Source of the DNA: a virus | DNA length: 29,664 nt | Reading direction: 5' to 3' (one strand) | IMG/VR virus record: IMGVR_UViG_3300032893_001681 | Coordinates: 1-29,664 of that record | Shown: positions 1,400 through 25,709 of the stretch, in pieces | How the letters are laid out: each line of letters starts with the position of its first letter | Position numbering within the stretch: position 1 is the first letter of the stretch | Notes under the pieces: model-generated | Database searches by the model: none | What the model saw: the letters and a program-made list of their open reading frames with translations, nothing else | What the model was told of the DNA's origin: nothing | Made by a program: the position numbers and the translations under genes

Positions 1400-2929
1400 T
1401 TATGATGCCAAGCGTCGCACTTTTGCATTAAACGAAGGTGCAGCTATCTCAAGTCCGTACATAGCAAAGATAATCCAACGAGACGAGAGCACACCATCAA
1501 CACCAGATGGGATCTGAAGCACAGTAAAGCCTTCAGAATACAACCATGGGATAGCAAGATGATCCTCGTCAACGATGTAGATGTCTTCTACGAGTGCATT
1601 GTCCGATGTGCGGTTATACGTGCCACCTGTGCTTCCAGGGAAGGGCACGATGAGCAGTTCGTCTTCAGAGTAGGTTAACGAGCTGACACGGGTGCCTGGG
1701 ATCAGATCTCGGAGATTGGCAGAGCTGTCATAGCGAACATTGGTCATCTGCTCGTCATCGAATGCCTGCTTTGAGTTCAGAGACATGAAGGCAAGCTTTG
1801 GCTTACCGCCGTTGTTTGCAGCTTGGGTTGCTCCATAGCGCAGAGACTCTGTGATATTCAAGCTTGCAACGTCTACCTGCGTTGCACCGTTCCCTGAGAA
1901 CGAGCCGACTGAACCAAGGACGCCACGGAAACCGTCAATGCCGTTTGCGTTGTATGCGCCTTTTTCAGTGCTTGACCCTGCGCCCGATGAGTTCGAGGCG
2001 TTTCCTTGCAGGATGAAGTATTGAATATCCTGTGCGAGTTTGACCATACCATTCAAATCTGTTACTCACCTATTGGTGGGTCTGATCATTTCTGTCAGAC
2101 TCTTACGGTCTCCCGTAAGTTCGGACTCTATCTTAACCTTTGCAGGTCCTCCGTACAGAGTCTCTGAGCCTTCACCATGGGCATCCTTGCCTGTAGGTGC
2201 TCGGTTGCTGATTGCCCTTACCCATTGCTTTTCGAGCTGTCACGTTTGCTCTTTCGGGCTACGTTGTAGCGCAATGGTCTCGCAGGATTTCCCAGCAATT
2301 CTCGGAGTTTTCCTTGCCGTTTATGCAACAAGGGGCCAATGTTGTTTAGCCATTTCGGTCAACTCAGGACTGTATGCAGGTGGACTACCACCAGCTTCGA
2401 CTGCTGCGATTTCCTTGAAGCTCACGCCTCTGCCCGTTGCAAAAACGGCAATAGGGAAGGTCAGCTTGTCATATGTGCCTGCCGTGTAACTCACCGTACC
2501 AGTCTCTGTGATTATGGTACTTCCAAGTGATCCAGAGTCAGGAGCGGTAATTCGTGTAGCTTGATGCACTAAACCATTCGAAGGTTTCTTTTGAATTCTT
2601 TCGAATACGGGAAACCTTTTCAAGAATATAGAATGCAAGACTGGTTCAAGGTCTTGACGTAAAAGAACGTTTCCGGTGGTCCCGCTTGTTGAGTCCAATA
2701 TGCTCTTAACACTGCTTGGTACAATGGGAGAGCTGTGAATTTCGCCGATGATCTTCTGGCTCAGTTGGCTCTCATCGCGGATTGGTGCGTCATTGTGGAT
2801 GAGATGCTTGAGTTGTTGGCGCATCTCGCCTTCGGTCATGGTACGCAGGTTCTCGTTGATAATCCTTTGCCGATCCTGTGCGTACTTAGTGTCGTGCGGA
2901 TGCTGCACGGCTGTAAACGTTCGTGACAC
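1400..2929 (-). CDS. Major capsid protein, split by a group I intron
   Basis: Two exons, complement(2327..2929) and complement(1400..2053), join to a 418-residue protein, a normal size for an HK97-fold capsid subunit. Exon 1 starts at a GTG (2929) six bases after AAGGAG and gives 201 codons ending WPLV. Exon 2 resumes NGMVKLAQDIQYFILQGN, so the helix runs through the junction. Read without splicing, exon 1 meets a TAA one codon past the junction, and exon 2 would need a TTG start with no ribosome site. The family call rests on position after the protease/scaffold gene, size and the charged N-terminus followed by beta-rich segments. A strong promoter lies upstream at 3086-3115. The exact splice point could shift by a few bases; an alternative join gives WPLVMVKL. 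Confidence 0.88.
2054..2326 (-). ncRNA. Group I self-splicing intron, ORF-less
   Basis: A 273-nt intron in the capsid gene. All conserved elements read in order on the minus strand: P element AATTGCTGGGAAA (2300-2288), Q AATCAGCAACC (2213-2203), R CTCAGAGACTC (2168-2158) and S AAGATAGAGTCC (2134-2123). Pairings are consistent: P3 CTCCG/CGGAG, P4 TTGCTG/CAGCAA, P5 CCATTGC/GCAATGG, P7 GACTCT/AGAGTC, P8 ACCT/AGGT, P9 CTTACGG/CCGTAAG with a GAGA loop, and a further stem GTCTGA/TCAGAC. P1 forms between the exon end CCTTGTT and CGGCAAGG, placing a U-G pair at the 5' splice site. The last intron base is G (2054). It encodes no endonuclease. Confidence 0.95.
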
Positions 2930-3085: not shown

Positions 3086-3115
3086 ATAGTACATCATGTA
3101 ACACTATGATGTCAA
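3086..3115 (-). promoter_or_regulatory. Promoter for the major capsid gene
   Basis: On the minus strand a perfect TTGACA (3115-3110) is followed after 18 bases by TACTAT (3091-3086), about 160 bases before the capsid start. The -35 is part of the repeated GTCTTGAC element. An extra promoter directly before the capsid gene fits the high demand for capsid subunits. Confidence 0.7.
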
Positions 3116-8325: not shown

Positions 8326-8780
8326 GACTTGTCCTCAAGGAGTTGATTCAATGAGATGCCTTGCTTCTCAGCGATTGCCATGAGCACCTTGTCTTGCTTT
8401 GCTAAGTGCTCCATGATCTGCTCAATATCTTGATAAGATTTTGTTGTTGTTTGAAAAGCTTCTTCAGCCATGATTTCTTGGTGTCTGCCGAGCAATCCTT
8501 GACCGACCATGATCACAATCATCAAAGGGAGTTGGGGCACTGAAGCAAGGCAAAGCAGCAGAGGCCATGGCATCGGATCAAAATGTGCAATGGTCGCATT
8601 GGCAAGAATCCAGAGCACAATCCATGCAACGATCCCCCAGAAGGTCCACATGGATTGAAAGACATGGGTCATCCCCACGGCTATGCGTTGATTAAGCCCT
8701 GATTCGCTCTGCTCTTGTCTGTGCTTTTCGTTGACATTCACGGGCTTGTGCGGATGTATCCGATGATGAAACAGACTCAT
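8322..8780 (-). CDS. DUF1003-like membrane protein
   Basis: A 152-residue protein resembling the DUF1003 family. A charged N-terminus precedes WTFWGIVAWIVLWILANATI (first membrane helix, about 45-65), then HFDPMPWPLLL and a second helix around 72-95. A cytoplasmic helical tail follows (QDIEQIMEHLAKQDKVL). DUF1003 proteins are small two-helix membrane proteins of unclear function that occur in bacteria and in phages. The start at 8780 abuts the upstream stop (TAAATG). A membrane role in lysis or superinfection control is speculation. Confidence 0.75.
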   Translation of the reverse strand: MSLFHHRIHPHKPVNVNEKHRQEQSESGLNQRIAVGMTHVFQSMWTFWGIVAWIVLWILANATIAHFDPMPWPLLLCLASVPQLPLMIVIMVGQGLLGRHQEIMAEEAFQTTTKSYQDIEQIMEHLAKQDKVLMAIAEKQGISLNQLLEDKS

Positions 8781-9053
8781 TTAACACCACCTAATCTTGT
8801 TCTGCTCAATGAAGTAGTGAGCACCGCACCCGCATAGAATACTAGGAGATACCGTGAGTACTCCATTGCTCTCAGTGACCTCATGGCATGCAAGGTTCGC
8901 TATGCCATGCAAGATTGGATCACGCGAGCACTTTGGGTTAGGGCATCCAACAAGCCAAGCCTGATGCAGCTCGCTGTACATTGCTTCTCCTGGTAGTAAT
9001 CTGTGAGGTTCCTTGTTGACCATGGTGATTTCAGTGAGTCGATGTTCTGTCAT
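8781..9053 (-). CDS. Cys-rich small protein, DUF6527-like
   Basis: A 90-residue protein with GCPNPKCS, LACHEV and PSILCGCGAHYFIEQNKIRW. The order of Cys pairs followed by PSI..C..HY.I...I.W resembles the DUF6527 type of small phage/bacterial protein, probably a zinc-bound beta domain. The ATG at 9053 is chosen over the GTG at 9059 because it gives the ATGA overlap used throughout this operon, with GAGG ten bases before. The next upstream gene is a divergent paralogue, and the one beyond that shares only the last nine residues. Confidence 0.6.
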   Translation of the reverse strand: MTEHRLTEITMVNKEPHRLLPGEAMYSELHQAWLVGCPNPKCSRDPILHGIANLACHEVTESNGVLTVSPSILCGCGAHYFIEQNKIRWC

Positions 9054-9319
9054 AGCCACTTTACCTCGTTGCGTTCGATGCTATATCTTTGTCTCATCCT
9101 GCTCCCATGGCAGTGCAGAGGTTGCGTGGTCGAGACCGTGCCATCCTCAAGCCGGAAAGTATCGGCAGAATAGCAGGTTATGGACCCACAGCCTGGACAG
9201 CAAAGCATCCACGAATCGTCCAAGGGAAACATGGGTTTTCCAATGTCACCGCGTTGATAGTCAGTGATTTGCTTGGTGCGACCAGAGATTACAGTGATAT
9301 GGGTGATGTCTTGAGTCAT
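9050..9319 (-). CDS. Cys-rich small protein, paralogue of the next gene
   Basis: An 89-residue protein with WMLCCPGCGSITC, then QPLHCHGSRMRQRYSIERNEVKW. The pattern of two Cys pairs and the closing Y.IE.N.(I/V).W matches the neighbour at 8781-9053, so the two arose by duplication or are fast-diverging members of one family. ATG at 9319 directly follows the upstream stop (TAGATG). Function unknown; zinc binding is likely. Confidence 0.6.
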   Translation of the reverse strand: MTQDITHITVISGRTKQITDYQRGDIGKPMFPLDDSWMLCCPGCGSITCYSADTFRLEDGTVSTTQPLHCHGSRMRQRYSIERNEVKWL

Positions 9320-9526
9320 CTAGCACCACCTGATCTTGTTCTGTTCAATCGCCCGTCTGAAGTCCTCTAGCATGGCACGTCTCCTTGCAAGGAACTTCCG
9401 TTCAGAGATCTCGATGGGTTCCCCTGACTCTGCTACGAGTTTCGCTGCTTCTCGCAGGACTCCGAGAGGAACTTCGCCATTGCCTTGTGCGTTGCATTCT
9501 GCGATCTCTTTGAAGCTAAGGCTCAT
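9320..9526 (-). CDS. Small protein with a borrowed C-terminus
   Basis: A 68-residue, mostly helical and charged protein (REAAKLVAESGEPIEISERK). Its last residues, IEQNKIRWC, are identical to the last residues of the Cys-rich protein at 8781-9053. The 28 bases that encode this end differ at only about three positions between the two genes. The body shows no Cys motif, so the tail looks acquired. It starts in an ATGA overlap at 9526. Function unknown. Confidence 0.6.
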   Translation of the reverse strand: MSLSFKEIAECNAQGNGEVPLGVLREAAKLVAESGEPIEISERKFLARRRAMLEDFRRAIEQNKIRWC

Positions 9527-9726
9527 AATTCTTTGTCTTCCTTCTCGCTACCAGCAAAGAACAGCTTCCCAAACTCACTAGGGCTCTTTGCCGTGAAAAA
9601 TGCACCTAGGAAATCATCGGCCATCTGCTGATAGTGCGGTGAAAGGGCCTTGTATTCAGGGCTCTCCTTGTGATCTCCCTGCTCGGCATGCTGCTGAAGC
9701 CATGCCATTGCTAGCTCATCATTCAT
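9523..9726 (-). CDS. Hypothetical small helical protein
   Basis: A 67-residue acidic protein, likely all-helical (ELAMAWLQQHAEQ, YQQMADDFLGAFF). It is joined to both neighbours by ATGA overlaps. No family recognised. Confidence 0.55.
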   Translation of the reverse strand: MNDELAMAWLQQHAEQGDHKESPEYKALSPHYQQMADDFLGAFFTAKSPSEFGKLFFAGSEKEDKEL

Positions 9727-10097
9727 CCTTGCTCTCCCTCAAAGAATGCCTTGACTCTTTCCCAAAGTACATCGCACATATCAGTGGATATCATGATAGC
9801 CTCAAATAAGCCCTGTACCTCAAGGAAATTCAGCATGTCGCCAATGGAGAAGAGTGGCAATATTGTCCCTTCATGTTTCTTGAGCTTGCCTATGTATGGA
9901 TCTGGATACTCAAATTCAAATTCTCTGTCAAACTCACCTTCAAAGACACCGCCGTACTCACCGTCTTTCTCTTCTGGAATATAGACCTGCACATAGGTAT
10001 CGTCATAGATTGGTTGATTGTAGAACCATTCAGCAAGCCTCTCTGCTGCTGCTTCAGATAGTGCTTCTAATTGCTCTACGTCAATGTTTTGTTTCAC
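9723..10097 (-). CDS. Hypothetical acidic protein
   Basis: A 124-residue protein with a strongly acidic aromatic middle (EYGGVFEGEFDREFEFEYPD, residues about 47-66). It starts with a helix rich in Glu and Ala. The C-terminal half, FSIGDMLNFLEVQGLFEAI, is helical. The acidic surface may mimic nucleic acid, but that is only a thought. ATGA overlaps on both sides. No family recognised. Confidence 0.55.
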   Translation of the reverse strand: MKQNIDVEQLEALSEAAAERLAEWFYNQPIYDDTYVQVYIPEEKDGEYGGVFEGEFDREFEFEYPDPYIGKLKKHEGTILPLFSIGDMLNFLEVQGLFEAIMISTDMCDVLWERVKAFFEGEQG

Positions 10098-10492
10098 CCG
10101 TTCTTCCCTCTCTTTGCAACTTCCTCGAATATCTTGGTTACTTCACGGGTTGTCATGGCAGAGGCCTTGATTGCATCGTGAATCGGCGTCTTCACAGGTT
10201 GCAATGGCCTGACCATGGCATCAAAGGCTTTCCCAGGATCTTTCAGTGCCTCTTCCCATGCATTCTCTGAATACCACGCATTGCGCAGAGGTTCAAGGAG
10301 TGCCAGTTTCTTGCGTGCCTCTAGTAACTCTTCAATGACATCATGGAGGACCATGTCAGCATCCTCGTTATCCGGTGGAACATGTAATACATGTCGTTGA
10401 TGAATGAGATCGATGAGAGCCTTGCGCATGTCTTGCTCGCTGCGATGCTTCAGGATATTCTTCTTGAGATCGTCATTGGTCATTCTAGTCAT
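10094..10492 (-). CDS. Hypothetical protein sharing its C-terminus with the portal
   Basis: A 132-residue helical protein (LIDLIHQRHVLHV; DVIEELLEARKKLALLEPL). Its final segment, REVTKIFEEVAKRGKNG, nearly repeats the last residues of the portal protein (KEVTKIFEEAAKRGKSG). The DNA of the two ends is also alike over roughly 45 bases (10098-10143 against 11712-11757). ATGA overlaps tie it to its neighbours. Function unknown. Confidence 0.6.
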   Translation of the reverse strand: MTRMTNDDLKKNILKHRSEQDMRKALIDLIHQRHVLHVPPDNEDADMVLHDVIEELLEARKKLALLEPLRNAWYSENAWEEALKDPGKAFDAMVRPLQPVKTPIHDAIKASAMTTREVTKIFEEVAKRGKNG

Positions 10493-11456: not shown

Positions 11457-11713
11457 GCCCTGTCCCTCCACTGCCTGCTCATCCTTGCCTTGCTTCGACG
11501 TTTGCGAGGTCGAGGATAACGCTTGCCTTGCGCCTTGTACTCGTTGGCCCATTTGAGGTGCTGAAGCATATCTTGCGTGACAGGGTATCCTGCAACGTGC
11601 CCGACAATCTGTGAATGCATCTCGCTTGCAATAATCCCTGTAACCTCGATCTCAACAGGCTCTCCGGGAACAGCCTTGACAATTTTCATTGATTCCCACG
11701 GGTATTCATTCAT
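11453..11713 (-). CDS. Small basic protein downstream of portal
   Basis: Start set at the ATG at 11713, which overlaps the portal stop codon (ATGA) and has AGAGG upstream; the open frame reaches further back only inside the portal gene. The 86-residue product has a beta segment (GEPVEIEVTGIIASE) and ends in a very basic tail (RYPRPRKRRSKARMSRQW), which suggests nucleic-acid or acidic-protein binding. No family recognised. Confidence 0.55.
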   Translation of the reverse strand: MNEYPWESMKIVKAVPGEPVEIEVTGIIASEMHSQIVGHVAGYPVTQDMLQHLKWANEYKAQGKRYPRPRKRRSKARMSRQWRDRA

Positions 11714-13722
11714 CCGCTTTTGCCTCTCTTTGCAGCTTCCTCGAATATCTTTGTCACTTCCTTGCACAGATCCTTGTTTGCCTTGGCCTCATCCTTGGGT
11801 ATCCAGGATTCACTCTCACTGCTTTTTGTTGCCACTCTCCATCTAGCAGGGATATGGCTTGGCGCAGACGATCGCCGCATGTACTTGGGCTTCCATGGCA
11901 TGCCTGGGGGACGCGCGTCGTACCACAGAGACTTATCTGCTTCATTGCTTGCAGTGCCATCCGACGCGGGTGCAGGGCTGTTCCCTGAGTTGTCAGTGGG
12001 AGCAGTGGGCTCGTTGGTGTTCGACGAGCCCTCATCGTCATCTTCAGGGATGCCTGGGTCTTCAGCATCTTGACTTGGACCTCCAGAAGCGTCCTGTGAG
12101 CCCATTGCTCCACCCGTGCTAATCGGAGTGTAATCACCAAGCTCTCCCTTGTAGTTGAGCCATGGCATTGGTCCCTGCGTCGTCATGACCCAGTAGGCAT
12201 CCCCACCGGGTACTGGCTCTTCGCCTCTCGAAGCTAATACCTGATTTAAACTGATTGATGGTAAACCTGCAAGGCCTTGAGCATACACGGTCATGCTTTC
12301 TTGCATATGTAGCTGCCTTGCCATCTCTGAGACCATTGGGAAGATAATGCGTAGGTTCACAGCGTTGAGATCATAGCGTCCATAGGGAAGCACGGGTGCA
12401 TAGTCTGCAACGAGTTCACGGTTGAAATATTGTTCTAGCATTAAGAGCAATGGGATGAGCCCTGTGTCCTCTGTGATGTCTTTTTGTGTTTCAGAGGTTG
12501 CACGATTGATATCAGCCATCATGTTGAAATACTGCACTGACATCATAAAGATCGTTGCAATCTTCTTGAGCATGTACTCCTGGTATTCGAGGAACTGGTT
12601 TTCTTTTGCTGAGTAGACGAGGCGGAATTGTGCAGCAGCAGAAGGGCCGCCAAACCAGAAGAGTTCTTTCTGGCCAGCGATATCGCGGTCATAGGCGTCT
12701 CGCATAGCTTCGAGTTGCTGTGAACTAGCATTCTGAATTTGGAATGCATTCGGAGGTGGCTTTTGTTGCATTGTTCGCAACGCTTGCTTGGTTGCTTCGA
12801 TGTCCGCCTTGATCGTGTCCATGAGCACCTGGACAGGCGATAAGCCATAGCGGTACGTGGCAGGATCAAGGATAGGCATGATGAGTTCATCGTTCCTCAA
12901 GGGGACTTTGCGTGACGATGCGAATTCCTCGAAAAGGTAACGCGGTTTATTGGGATCACCATCCCAGCCAGGGTAGATCTTGATCGTTGCTGCATCCTCT
13001 GCATACAACGAGGTGGGTTTCCGATCAACGGTCATGCCTTTGGAGATTGCGCCACGACCAAGGACAAGGACGTCTTCGAGAGCCCCCGAGATCAGCTCTG
13101 ACCAGTTCTCACGGCGTTCGTTGGGTTGGTCAAGGAGCAACTCAAGGCTATACTGTGTCTTTTTGTCGAATTTGCGCTTTGGGTCACCCGGGATTACAGC
13201 GATCTCAGCGTTGCCTACTTGTCGTCTGCGGATGTTCACGGCAGCTCTGACCCACTCATCGTTGTCGGCGTAATTTCTCAGTAAAAAGGCATTGGGCACG
13301 CCTTGAGGTTGATCTTTGGATGTGCTCCACCCAGCCATGTTTCCGCGCGCCTGTGGGTAGCTTCCCGTCGGCGATTCTCTTTGGAGTTCAGGGCTAATCG
13401 TGGATTGTCTGAGCATCTCACGGCGTTCGCTGTGCTGTAGTTCACGAATGTATGGCACAAGCTCAGGGTGAGCATTGAGGATAGCAGTGGCATGGGAGAA
13501 GTCCAAGAATTCCAGGGCAGGAACACGTGACCGTGCAGCTCGTTGCTCAGCCAAGGCTTGCGAGCGTTGCAAGCTCACGGAGAGTTCCTGGAAGGCAGCG
13601 GAAAGCGTCGGGTCCGAGGCCAGGCGGTCCCAGTCAGACTGCGGGACTGCACGGGGTCGGTAACCACTGTGGTCCTTCATGAGAGTCACTGACTTCTTCG
13701 ATTTTCGTTGCTTCCTGCTCAT
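11710..13722 (-). CDS. Portal protein
   Basis: A 670-residue portal of the HK97-like (Phage_portal) type. It would form the dodecameric ring at the capsid vertex through which DNA is packaged and to which the tail connects. Support: residues about 150-240 carry the wing-like core with VLGRGAISKGM, then YRYGLSPVQVL at about 295, the characteristic portal hinge, and a long helical segment with LEYQEYMLKKIATIF. The last 130 residues are rich in Gly, Ser, Pro and Asp and end in the KEVTKIFEEAAKRGKSG cassette shared with the gene at 10094. It lies just downstream of the terminase genes, as expected. Confidence 0.9.
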   Translation of the reverse strand: MSRKQRKSKKSVTLMKDHSGYRPRAVPQSDWDRLASDPTLSAAFQELSVSLQRSQALAEQRAARSRVPALEFLDFSHATAILNAHPELVPYIRELQHSERREMLRQSTISPELQRESPTGSYPQARGNMAGWSTSKDQPQGVPNAFLLRNYADNDEWVRAAVNIRRRQVGNAEIAVIPGDPKRKFDKKTQYSLELLLDQPNERRENWSELISGALEDVLVLGRGAISKGMTVDRKPTSLYAEDAATIKIYPGWDGDPNKPRYLFEEFASSRKVPLRNDELIMPILDPATYRYGLSPVQVLMDTIKADIEATKQALRTMQQKPPPNAFQIQNASSQQLEAMRDAYDRDIAGQKELFWFGGPSAAAQFRLVYSAKENQFLEYQEYMLKKIATIFMMSVQYFNMMADINRATSETQKDITEDTGLIPLLLMLEQYFNRELVADYAPVLPYGRYDLNAVNLRIIFPMVSEMARQLHMQESMTVYAQGLAGLPSISLNQVLASRGEEPVPGGDAYWVMTTQGPMPWLNYKGELGDYTPISTGGAMGSQDASGGPSQDAEDPGIPEDDDEGSSNTNEPTAPTDNSGNSPAPASDGTASNEADKSLWYDARPPGMPWKPKYMRRSSAPSHIPARWRVATKSSESESWIPKDEAKANKDLCKEVTKIFEEAAKRGKSG

Positions 13723-15538: not shown

Positions 15539-15581
15539 TGATCATCCTTGAAATAATGTCAAGACTTTGCCAATGACAAAG

Positions 15582-17016: not shown

Positions 17017-17196
17017 TCAGTGATCCTCCCTGTTTCTCGACTTTTCTGAACTAAATCCGCTTGGATACCTTCTTCTTAGCTTTTCAACGTTTTTCTCTAG
17101 GACATCCTTGAGTGAGATATCGAGCGCGTTGCACATGGCGCTGATATACCATGCAATTACTGAGATTGCTTGGATGGGTGATATTCTGGTTTCCAT
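17017..17196 (-). CDS. MazG-like C-terminal fragment, 59 residues
   Basis: A short frame whose 5' end overlaps the 3' end of the homing endonuclease gene by 40 bases. The peptide AWYISAMCNALDISLKDVLE then KNVEKLRRRYPSGF matches the C-terminal half of MazG-like nucleotide pyrophosphohydrolases (LWYLSAL...GISLEEVA..N..KLR.RYP.GF). The metal-binding EExxE part expected before it is absent, so the enzyme cannot be complete. AAAGGAGG precedes the ATG at 17196 by four bases, so the fragment may still be translated. It looks like a remnant left after insertion of the endonuclease. Confidence 0.6.
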   Translation of the reverse strand: METRISPIQAISVIAWYISAMCNALDISLKDVLEKNVEKLRRRYPSGFSSEKSRNREDH

Positions 17197-18062
17197 GTTT
17201 CCTCCTTTTGAATGGAAAGAATAACTCTCGGAGATACTCCATACAGCTTTGCAATATCCACTTTGCGCATTTTGCCTTCTTTCAGCAAAATACGTATCTC
17301 ATCAACTTTTTCCCAATTTAGCTTGCCAATTGCTTGACGTTGTTTTTCTTTATGTTCATTAGTGATAGGCACTCCTCTGCGGGAGGCATGTGCAAGTTCA
17401 AGCGATTTTTGCATTGCCTCTGTGTATTTGCCTTTCTTTGATTCAGAAATCTTCTTACCAATCCCGGGAGAGTATCCCCGAACTTTTAATGCTTCTCTTA
17501 GTGCTTCTGTTCTTTTTTCGACCGCTTCTGGCGATTGCTTTTTGCCTTTCTTTGCTGCTGCAATGTTTGCGCGATGCTCATCAGTGAATTTCATACCCTT
17601 CCTTGCTTCTGAATGCGCCCTTTTTGCAGCGTCACTCCATTTGACCGGTGCAATCAGACCATTTAGGTGCGCCCTCCTTAAGCCCTCATGGAGTTTTCGG
17701 TTATGTTCGGGAGTATTTGGACGCCCCTTCCGCGTTACACCACCAGTTCCACCTTCTGCGGTATTTGTAAGATTTGCCCCAAGTCTACGCATATAAGCAA
17801 TCCAAAAAATCTCAGCTTCATCTAGTAAATATAGCGGAAGCTCCATTATTATGATCCCTTTAGGATACAGTCCCAGTTCCCGTAATTGGCGCAACCATCG
17901 AGTGTGATGTGTATCATATCTATTCAGCACTCCAGGTGTCATATGACGACGTATTCTATACGCTAATGAATTTATCGTTTTGCCTACATATCGCAATTCA
18001 TTAGTACGTGGGTCGCACATGCCGTAGATAATACCTCTCCCTGGTTTCTCTTGATCGCTCAT
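17157..18062 (-). CDS. GIY-YIG homing endonuclease
   Basis: A 301-residue site-specific DNA endonuclease. The N-terminal GIY-YIG domain shows GIIYGM (10-15), YVGKT (25-29), the arginine helix LAYRIRRH and a Glu (82 or 84) in DEAEIFWIAYMRRLGANLTN, then GGTGG. Residues 110-240 carry repeated NUMOD3-type DNA-binding segments (PEHNRKLHEGLRRAH; WSDAAKRAHSEARKG; TDEHRANIAAAKKGK). A helix-turn-helix follows near 252-288 (KVDIAKLYGVSPRVILSI). It is free-standing and has its own promoter and GGAGG (18069-18073). It overlaps a MazG-like fragment. It could home into that locus or mobilise the ORF-less capsid intron in trans, neither of which is shown. Confidence 0.93.
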   Translation of the reverse strand: MSDQEKPGRGIIYGMCDPRTNELRYVGKTINSLAYRIRRHMTPGVLNRYDTHHTRWLRQLRELGLYPKGIIIMELPLYLLDEAEIFWIAYMRRLGANLTNTAEGGTGGVTRKGRPNTPEHNRKLHEGLRRAHLNGLIAPVKWSDAAKRAHSEARKGMKFTDEHRANIAAAKKGKKQSPEAVEKRTEALREALKVRGYSPGIGKKISESKKGKYTEAMQKSLELAHASRRGVPITNEHKEKQRQAIGKLNWEKVDEIRILLKEGKMRKVDIAKLYGVSPRVILSIQKEETWKPEYHPSKQSQ

Positions 18063-20694: not shown

Positions 20695-20723
20695 ATTGTA
20701 GGGCTATATCTACATCACGTCAA
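20695..20723 (-). promoter_or_regulatory. Near-consensus leftward promoter
   Basis: TTGACG (20723-20718), a 17-base spacer and TACAAT (20700-20695) on the minus strand, 39 bases upstream of a TTG start with a perfect AAGGAGG. It carries the repeated GTCTTGAC element and heads the leftward operon from 20656 to 18384. Confidence 0.75.
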
Positions 20724-21127
20724 GACTTTGCGCATGACAATGGAGACATTGGCTATTATGCCTTCCCTAAGTCGCATGGAGTCAAGACATTGCAAATCAC
20801 AGAGAGACCAATGGACGCTGTGTTATCGCGCTGAGAAGGTCACAGAGGCCTCTGTCTGGGGTTTGATGATAGATGATACCTACCACCTAGGATTTGTATT
20901 CTGACGCGATTTGGAAGGAGTGGTTCGTAGAGGTCGAGGTTTTGCGGGAAAAATCAATGACCTTCGCTGCCAAGCAAGGAAGGACAAAGAGAGCAGTGAA
21001 GGCCATGTGGTCGGGTAGCAGGGACTTCCACCCTGTCCGCTTGGTCTTGGCGGCGTTCAGCCTCTATCGCTTCTCCTCTTCGGATCTACCCGTTGATTGG
21101 AGTCCCCTGCAAGGATAGCACGGAGCA
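20724..21127. other. Gap without a convincing gene
   Basis: About 400 bases. A plus-strand frame at 20894-21118 lacks a ribosome site and a known pattern. A second GTCTTGAC copy lies at 20788-20781. Near 21015-21110, two pairs of complementary words interleave (CGGGTAG/CTACCCG and GGGACT/AGTCCC), so the region could fold as RNA. The hairpin CCCCTG/CAGGGG at 21104-21134 overlaps the stop of the next minus gene. Confidence 0.4.
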
Positions 21128-24851: not shown

Positions 24852-25709
24852 GACTTTGGGGCATGCAGAGGACCTTCAGAGAACCAGATTTGGCAGGATG
24901 AGACTGAAGCAAGGAAGCATTGATATTTGCTATCGTATGGCTTGCAGAGCAGGATGAAATGGGTTAATGCAGAAAGCGTTAGGGAGCAAGATGTAGTGAA
25001 GGGAAGTCCTGTTTCTATAACATATATGTGTGAGTGAGTATTCGTGTTTTCATAGCAGATGGCTAGATACACACACAGATAAAATCTATCTTACTACTAC
25101 CCAATCAATATACTAACATAATAACAATATATAATAATAATGTCCATACAAGTATAGTTTACATGCGTATATAGATTAAGTGTGTAAAGCTATGTGTGTT
25201 ATTGTATATACGCAAATACTCACTCACACATATATGTTATCGGGAATAGGACTACAACTACACCAATAGCCTCTCATCCCGCTCTGCAAGCCACCTCAAT
25301 GCCATTTCCTTGATTTCTACGGTTTCTCCACCACAGCCCTACTCTGAGCACCCTGCCTACATTGCACCCTGAGCCTGCTCTGCAAGCGCGTTGAGTGGCA
25401 GTGGGCTGCGTTGAATTTTTCAGGGAGAGTCCGAGTTTTGGCGGCGGGATCGCTGATTCGTTGCATATAGTCATTGAATCTGGCCCTGCAAAAGCGGGTT
25501 TGGCACTCGCCGATCTGTGTAGACAATATAGAAACAACGCCGATTTTTTCTATGATGGCCAAGGCAAAGGACACGGGGCTACTACACCTTGCCTTTCTCT
25601 GCCTTCCCCGAAGTCTCAACGACATCTCTGCTACCTGCATTGCCAAGCGGGGAGATGCTGTGTTAGCATTGGAGGATAATCATGTCAAGACATAGGAGAT
25701 GATAAAGCT
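24852..25709. other. Non-coding intergenic hub
   Basis: An 850-base gap holding no convincing gene. It contains the quasi-palindrome (see 24938-25293), a third CTTGCAGAGC word at 25374-25387 in reverse orientation, and a GTCTTGAC copy at 25691-25684 facing left. A plus-strand frame at 25555-25695 (MAKAKDTGLLHLAFLCLPRS) has no ribosome site. A weak plus-strand promoter, TTGGCA (25500) with GACAAT 16 bases on, may serve the rightward operon. Confidence 0.4.
24938..25293. repeat. AT-rich quasi-palindrome, candidate replication or control site
   Basis: Nested inverted repeats share one centre near 25128. Core arms of 26 perfect bases, ATAACATATATGTGTGAGTG onward, lie at 25017-25042 and 25215-25240. 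AGTCCT words flank them. Outer arms TGGCTTGCAGAGCAGGATGA (24938-24957) and 25274-25293 match at 19 of 20. Inside, TGCGTATATA/TATATACGCA (25164-25173 and 25205-25214) adds another stem, and the 172-base centre is very AT-rich. No target-site duplication is seen. Confidence 0.7.

Follow-up and report, generated by a model that had tools for sequence, protein, structure and literature searches.

The capsid locus and a putative group I intron

The window analysed here is the whole stretch of 29,664 nucleotides of the IMG/VR phage contig IMGVR_UViG_3300032893_001681. Its minus strand carries the major capsid gene with the intron, and genes for a terminase, a portal and a protease-like protein lie upstream. 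ORF calling splits the gene in two (2929-2321 and 2056-1400), as described in an earlier interpretation made from the letters alone (the sequence-only reading), which had attributed the break to an ORF-less group I intron and had named no strand for the gene. The exons and RNA elements as we now place them are listed in Table 1.

Table 1. Positions of the capsid exons, the putative intron and its RNA elements in the window, and of the second-site intron in two related contigs
Feature	Position	Strand	Details
Exon 1, major capsid gene	2348..2929	-	GTG start at 2929, AAGGAG 8 nt upstream; 194 codons; ends ATG GCT
Group I intron (putative), 294 nt, without endonuclease ORF	2054..2347	-	placed by Rfam alignment, fold and comparison with relatives
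Exon 2, major capsid gene	1400..2053	-	begins AAT GGT ATG; stop included
P1	2334..2351	-	5' exon GGCU (2351-2348) and intron AA with UUGGCC (2339-2334); U.G at the splice site
P2 hairpin	2312..2333	-	CCUUGUUG/CGGCAAGG; arms 2333-2326/2319-2312; loop has the first in-frame stop, TAA 2323-2321
P3	2149..2307	-	CUCCG 2307-2303 with CGGAG 2153-2149
P4	2205..2298	-	UUGCUG 2298-2293 with CAGCAA 2210-2205; encloses the extended P5 region
P7 (guanosine-binding helix; R and S elements)	2124..2162	-	GACUCU 2162-2157 with AGAGUC 2129-2124
P8, enclosed by P7	2136..2147	-	ACCU 2147-2144 with AGGU 2139-2136
P9 hairpin	2102..2119	-	CUUACGG/CCGUAAG
P9.1 hairpin	2080..2100	-	GUCUGA-cagaaauga-UCAGAC; outer pairs covary across phage introns, judged from sequence matches
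P9.2 hairpin	2067..2078	-	CACC/GGUG
P10 partner	2050..2053	-	3' exon AAUG with intron CAUU (2341-2338), directly 5' of the P1 guide GGCC
Second-site intron	L002:4881-6000 and L135:3880-5000		PVL/HSIF; antisense HNH ORF in both

The region was searched with the Rfam covariance model RF00028. This search had been proposed by the sequence-only reading, which took a missing hit as evidence against the intron. A match was obtained at 2357-2102 on the minus strand, covering the complete model (1-253 of 253) with 52.8 bits (E 6.8e-11), which exceeds the cutoff of 50 bits by only 2.8 bits. The core helices P3, P4, P7 and P8 and the P, Q, R and S elements are all present. Compared to the Rfam consensus, paired changes have occurred in P4 (GCGG/CCGC to GCUG/CAGC) and in P7 (ACUA/UAGU to ACUC/GAGU). 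Two helices are short, with five pairs in P3 and four in P8, and P7.1/P7.2 were not found in the intron by eye. The RNA of the intron region folds with -107 kcal/mol (z -5.4) and none of 100 dinucleotide shuffles was as stable. The minimum-energy fold includes P1, P2, P4, P7, P8, P9, P9.1 and P9.2, and the named helices were fully paired on checking, where P8 and P9.2 were read from the sequence. No endonuclease ORF was found within the intron, in agreement with the earlier description of it as ORF-less, and the HNH proteins of two related contigs (L003 and L002, see below) had no match in the window. For the P3-P5 part, the closest likeness is to introns in Serratia phage RpoBC genes (73% over 117 nt, E 4e-6) and in Salmonella and Staphylococcus phages (Twort nrdE).

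The P9.1 hairpin lies outside the Rfam model and was scanned for with a 15-base motif. As the loop motif itself was searched for, only pairs outside it are counted. The matches listed are mostly due to chance, and 21 of the 91 distinct places among them follow an S-type element. The stem was extended by at least three further pairs of varied sequence in all 21 listed places with an S element, the window included, with outer pairs such as GGU/ACC, GAU/AUC, AAC/GUU and GGG/CCC. Without an S element, an extension was seen in 7 of the 70 listed. On this basis, about 20 phage introns besides that of the window show covariation in P9.1 among the matches listed.

The capsid identity was analysed with the predicted spliced protein. 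It matches the Pfam family SU10_MCP (PF17236) at residues 191-409, spanning the junction, with 26.2 bits (6.9e-6; cutoff 24.1 bits), and weakly a PHROG major head protein (E 0.00099). When the two ORFs were taken separately, no PHROG family was matched. A search of the PDB sequences gave no match, and no capsid relatives were found in cultured-phage records or GTDB genomes. With regard to an HK97 fold, the structure model of an uninterrupted homologue, made from a two-sequence alignment, had a pLDDT of 31, too low for use.

Several other elements were observed in the contigs. A free-standing ORF resembling homing endonucleases (PHROG homing endonuclease, 6.6e-12) is located at 17157-18062 (minus strand), upstream of the gene for the small terminase. 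By eye its start is GIY-YIG-like, and L002 has another GIY-YIG ORF at 8755-9801. A ATGTCAAGACTTTGCCAATGACA-like element occurs four times in one orientation (15553-15579, 20714-20740, 20776-20802 and 25679-25705; chance expectation 0.06), and upstream of the capsid gene, near 3109, there is a similar ATGTCAAGACCTGATTGTCAT; the ATGTCAAGACTTTGCCAATGACA-like elements are possibly promoters or operator sites. A direct repeat of 59 nt (83%; 10086-10144 and 11702-11760) gives two genes, including that of the portal, the same C-terminal module (EVTKIFEEVAKRGKxG), and the arms of a 31-nt inverted repeat (25017-25047 and 25210-25240; 94% complementary) are 162 nt apart.

Alleles of the capsid gene in related contigs

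The capsid gene was also found on five other IMG/VR contigs, L133, L136, L002, L135 and L003, and the exon 1 start is common to the window, L003, L133 and L136. L133 and L136 have an uninterrupted capsid ORF with 78-79% residue identity over residues 1-409 of 411, reading SPELTEMSNGM at the site. L002 and L135 are also uninterrupted at this site (SPELTEM-S-NGM, no added residue). All four alleles align across the junction without a gap and without extra residues. The sequence-only reading had named a real extra segment of about 90 residues in homologous capsids as a finding against an intron; the uninterrupted alleles have no such segment. L002 and L135 contain a different group I intron of 1.1 kb after codon 98 of the window capsid numbering (Table 1), for which the L135 copy gave 28.4 bits with RF00028 (E 5.3e-5).

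In the fifth contig, L003 (IMGVR_UViG_3300036772_000234), an intron interrupts the gene at exactly this codon. It has its first 16 and last 12 nucleotides in common with the window intron, and the guide is likewise the same. Unlike the window intron, it is 1382 nt long, has an ORF of 364 residues with an HNH domain (PF01844, 8.7e-11) between P1 and P3, i.e. in P2, and is without the extended P5. Its core is only weakly alignable and reached 25.8 bits with RF00028 (E 6e-5), below the cutoff. When the two cores were aligned, about 100 of 188 positions aligned with a score of 41.5, far above the shuffled sequences (mean 12.4, largest 29.5), and the two are therefore related as group I cores. A search with the 16 bases of the intron start gave 10 matches, of which L003 was the sole true relative, and with 25 bases of the exon-intron junction L003 was the sole match.

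Pairing with the guide is possible only in the two intron-bearing alleles, where exon 1 ends with GGCU, as the intronless ones have GAGC, GAGU or GUCC at this point. Over the 60 nt before the site, the window shares 87% identity with L003 and 63-73% with the intronless alleles. Because the bin from -240 to -181 is nearly as high (83% between the window and L003), co-conversion of the flanking exon between these two is only suggested by the numbers.

The modest Rfam score would also fit an intron that has degenerated past splicing, leaving the capsid gene broken or the virion built with two separate polypeptides. We consider this very unlikely, as P1, P2, P3, P4, P7, P8, P9 and P10 are intact and the changes in P4 and P7 are paired. 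In addition, both exons are 75-76% identical to those of L003 in nucleotides and 84-89% in residues, as expected for a working essential gene.

Proposed splice sites, splicing and origin

In the Rfam alignment, the conserved U of the splice site falls on position 2348, where it pairs G.U in P1, and the last intron base is a G (2054). Since the P1 helix GGCUAA/UUGGCC puts the last U of the exon at 2348, we place the intron at 2347-2054 with a length of 294 nt. Splicing would join ...SPELTEMA/NGMVKLAQ... in frame to a protein of 411 residues. There are three in-frame stops inside the intron, the first 24 nt past the 5' splice site.

The sequence-only reading had placed the intron at 2326-2054 (273 nt) with a product of 418 residues. 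Its 3' end was right, whereas the 5' end was off by 21 nt. Of the pairings it had named, P3, P4, P7, P8 and P9 are present, whereas its P1 (CCUUGUUG/CGGCAAGG) was rejected here, as this hairpin is P2 and a better P1 is found upstream at the Rfam-aligned position. The shorter intron would also be in frame, with a U ahead of its cut and a possible U.G pair in the hairpin. It would add the seven residues KQHWPLV, which all four alleles without an interruption at the site lack, and the same-site intron of L003 conserves AAACAACATTGGCCCC but not the guide that the shorter intron requires. These boundaries appear even less probable to us than a degenerate intron. A translated insertion, or handling at the protein or ribosome level by an intein or bypassing, would agree with a length that is a multiple of three and has practically no chance against the empty alleles, the complete group I core, three in-frame stops and the lack of any sequence resembling an intein.

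We conclude with high confidence that the window capsid gene is interrupted by an ORF-less group I intron at 2347-2054, which would be spliced to give the 411-residue capsid protein; the intron RNA almost certainly cuts itself out before translation. The main claim of the sequence-only reading, a group I intron in the capsid gene, is thereby upheld. It is supported at the sequence level by the match above the cutoff, the complete core architecture, the junction, the uninterrupted alleles and the same-site intron of a relative; the splicing, its efficiency and the history of the intron are what we infer from them.

From this architecture, we propose the canonical two-step splicing initiated by guanosine. 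The intron guide CAUUGGCC would pair with its GGCC to the end of exon 1 (P1) and with its CAUU to the start of exon 2 (P10). In the first step, a guanosine held in P7 would attack after U2348, and in the second step the freed end of exon 1 would attack after G2054, so that ...ELTEMA is linked in frame to NGMVKL.... The stop in the P2 loop would halt ribosomes ahead of the catalytic core. For the window, L003 and L135, an in-frame stop follows the 5' splice site at a distance of 24-27 nt, and for L002 at 3 nt, in each case ahead of the core; such early stops may be useful for keeping ribosomes off the ribozyme.

Since the window intron encodes no endonuclease, it is unable to home alone. As a relative has an HNH-bearing intron at the very same site, it probably entered by homing, and would now be a passenger of the gene. 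Both a loss of the HNH ORF from P2 and a mobilisation in trans are possible. The two introns with the same ends at one capsid site could also have different cores, which would mean that cores were exchanged by recombination while the site-specific guide was kept, and that the endonuclease-free version persists by blocking the HNH cutting of a competing phage; we regard this as rather unlikely. The set of alleles in one gene, empty, ORF-less, HNH-bearing and with a second site, is in our view the more interesting part.

Comparison with known introns in phage structural genes

As the sequence-only reading had predicted, automated gene calling yields two broken capsid fragments at this locus. Together with the HNH-bearing relatives that score below the Rfam cutoff, this means that such genomes are missed by capsid-based phage classification. 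A survey of the Bastillevirinae remarked that intron types which the models represent poorly are overlooked in searches (PMC11878797), which fits the low-scoring relatives found here.

Introns in capsid genes were already known in phages, as had been stated. In the major capsid gene of mycobacteriophage LittleE, splicing was shown by RT-PCR and protein sequencing (PMC3706429). As in the window, the exon ends with U, the intron with G, and uninterrupted relatives exist. The LittleE intron differs in its 819 bp and in its antisense endonuclease ORF, a feature also of the second-site intron of L002 and L135, and it was judged a likely group I intron, compared to the Rfam match and full core in the window. 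A capsid-gene intron of lactococcal Tuc2009 is known to us through its citation in the same paper (PMC3706429). Mycobacteriophage BAKA has an ORF-less intron of 265 bp that was spliced in RT-PCR (PMC3706429); like the window intron it is short, without endonuclease and in a virion gene, but this is a tail gene.

In Bacillus phage SP-15 (KT624200), the annotation divides the major capsid CDS into two parts with an endonuclease between them. Its P3-P5 region aligns with that of the window (80.8% over 51 nt, E 0.08), whereas it has an endonuclease ORF and a gp23-type capsid gene. The capsid gene of bajarodcaudo virus 2 (PQ006093.1; L140:2462-2788) contains an apparent ORF-less group I intron of 327 nt, with 48.5 bits just under the RF00028 cutoff, and its removal joins MQQD to MLAIRAVMRIGW. 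Its capsid is unrelated to that of the window and was deposited as a truncated CDS with the intron unannotated. Group I introns in capsid genes and ORF-less phage introns are thus both published, and the window intron is a new example.
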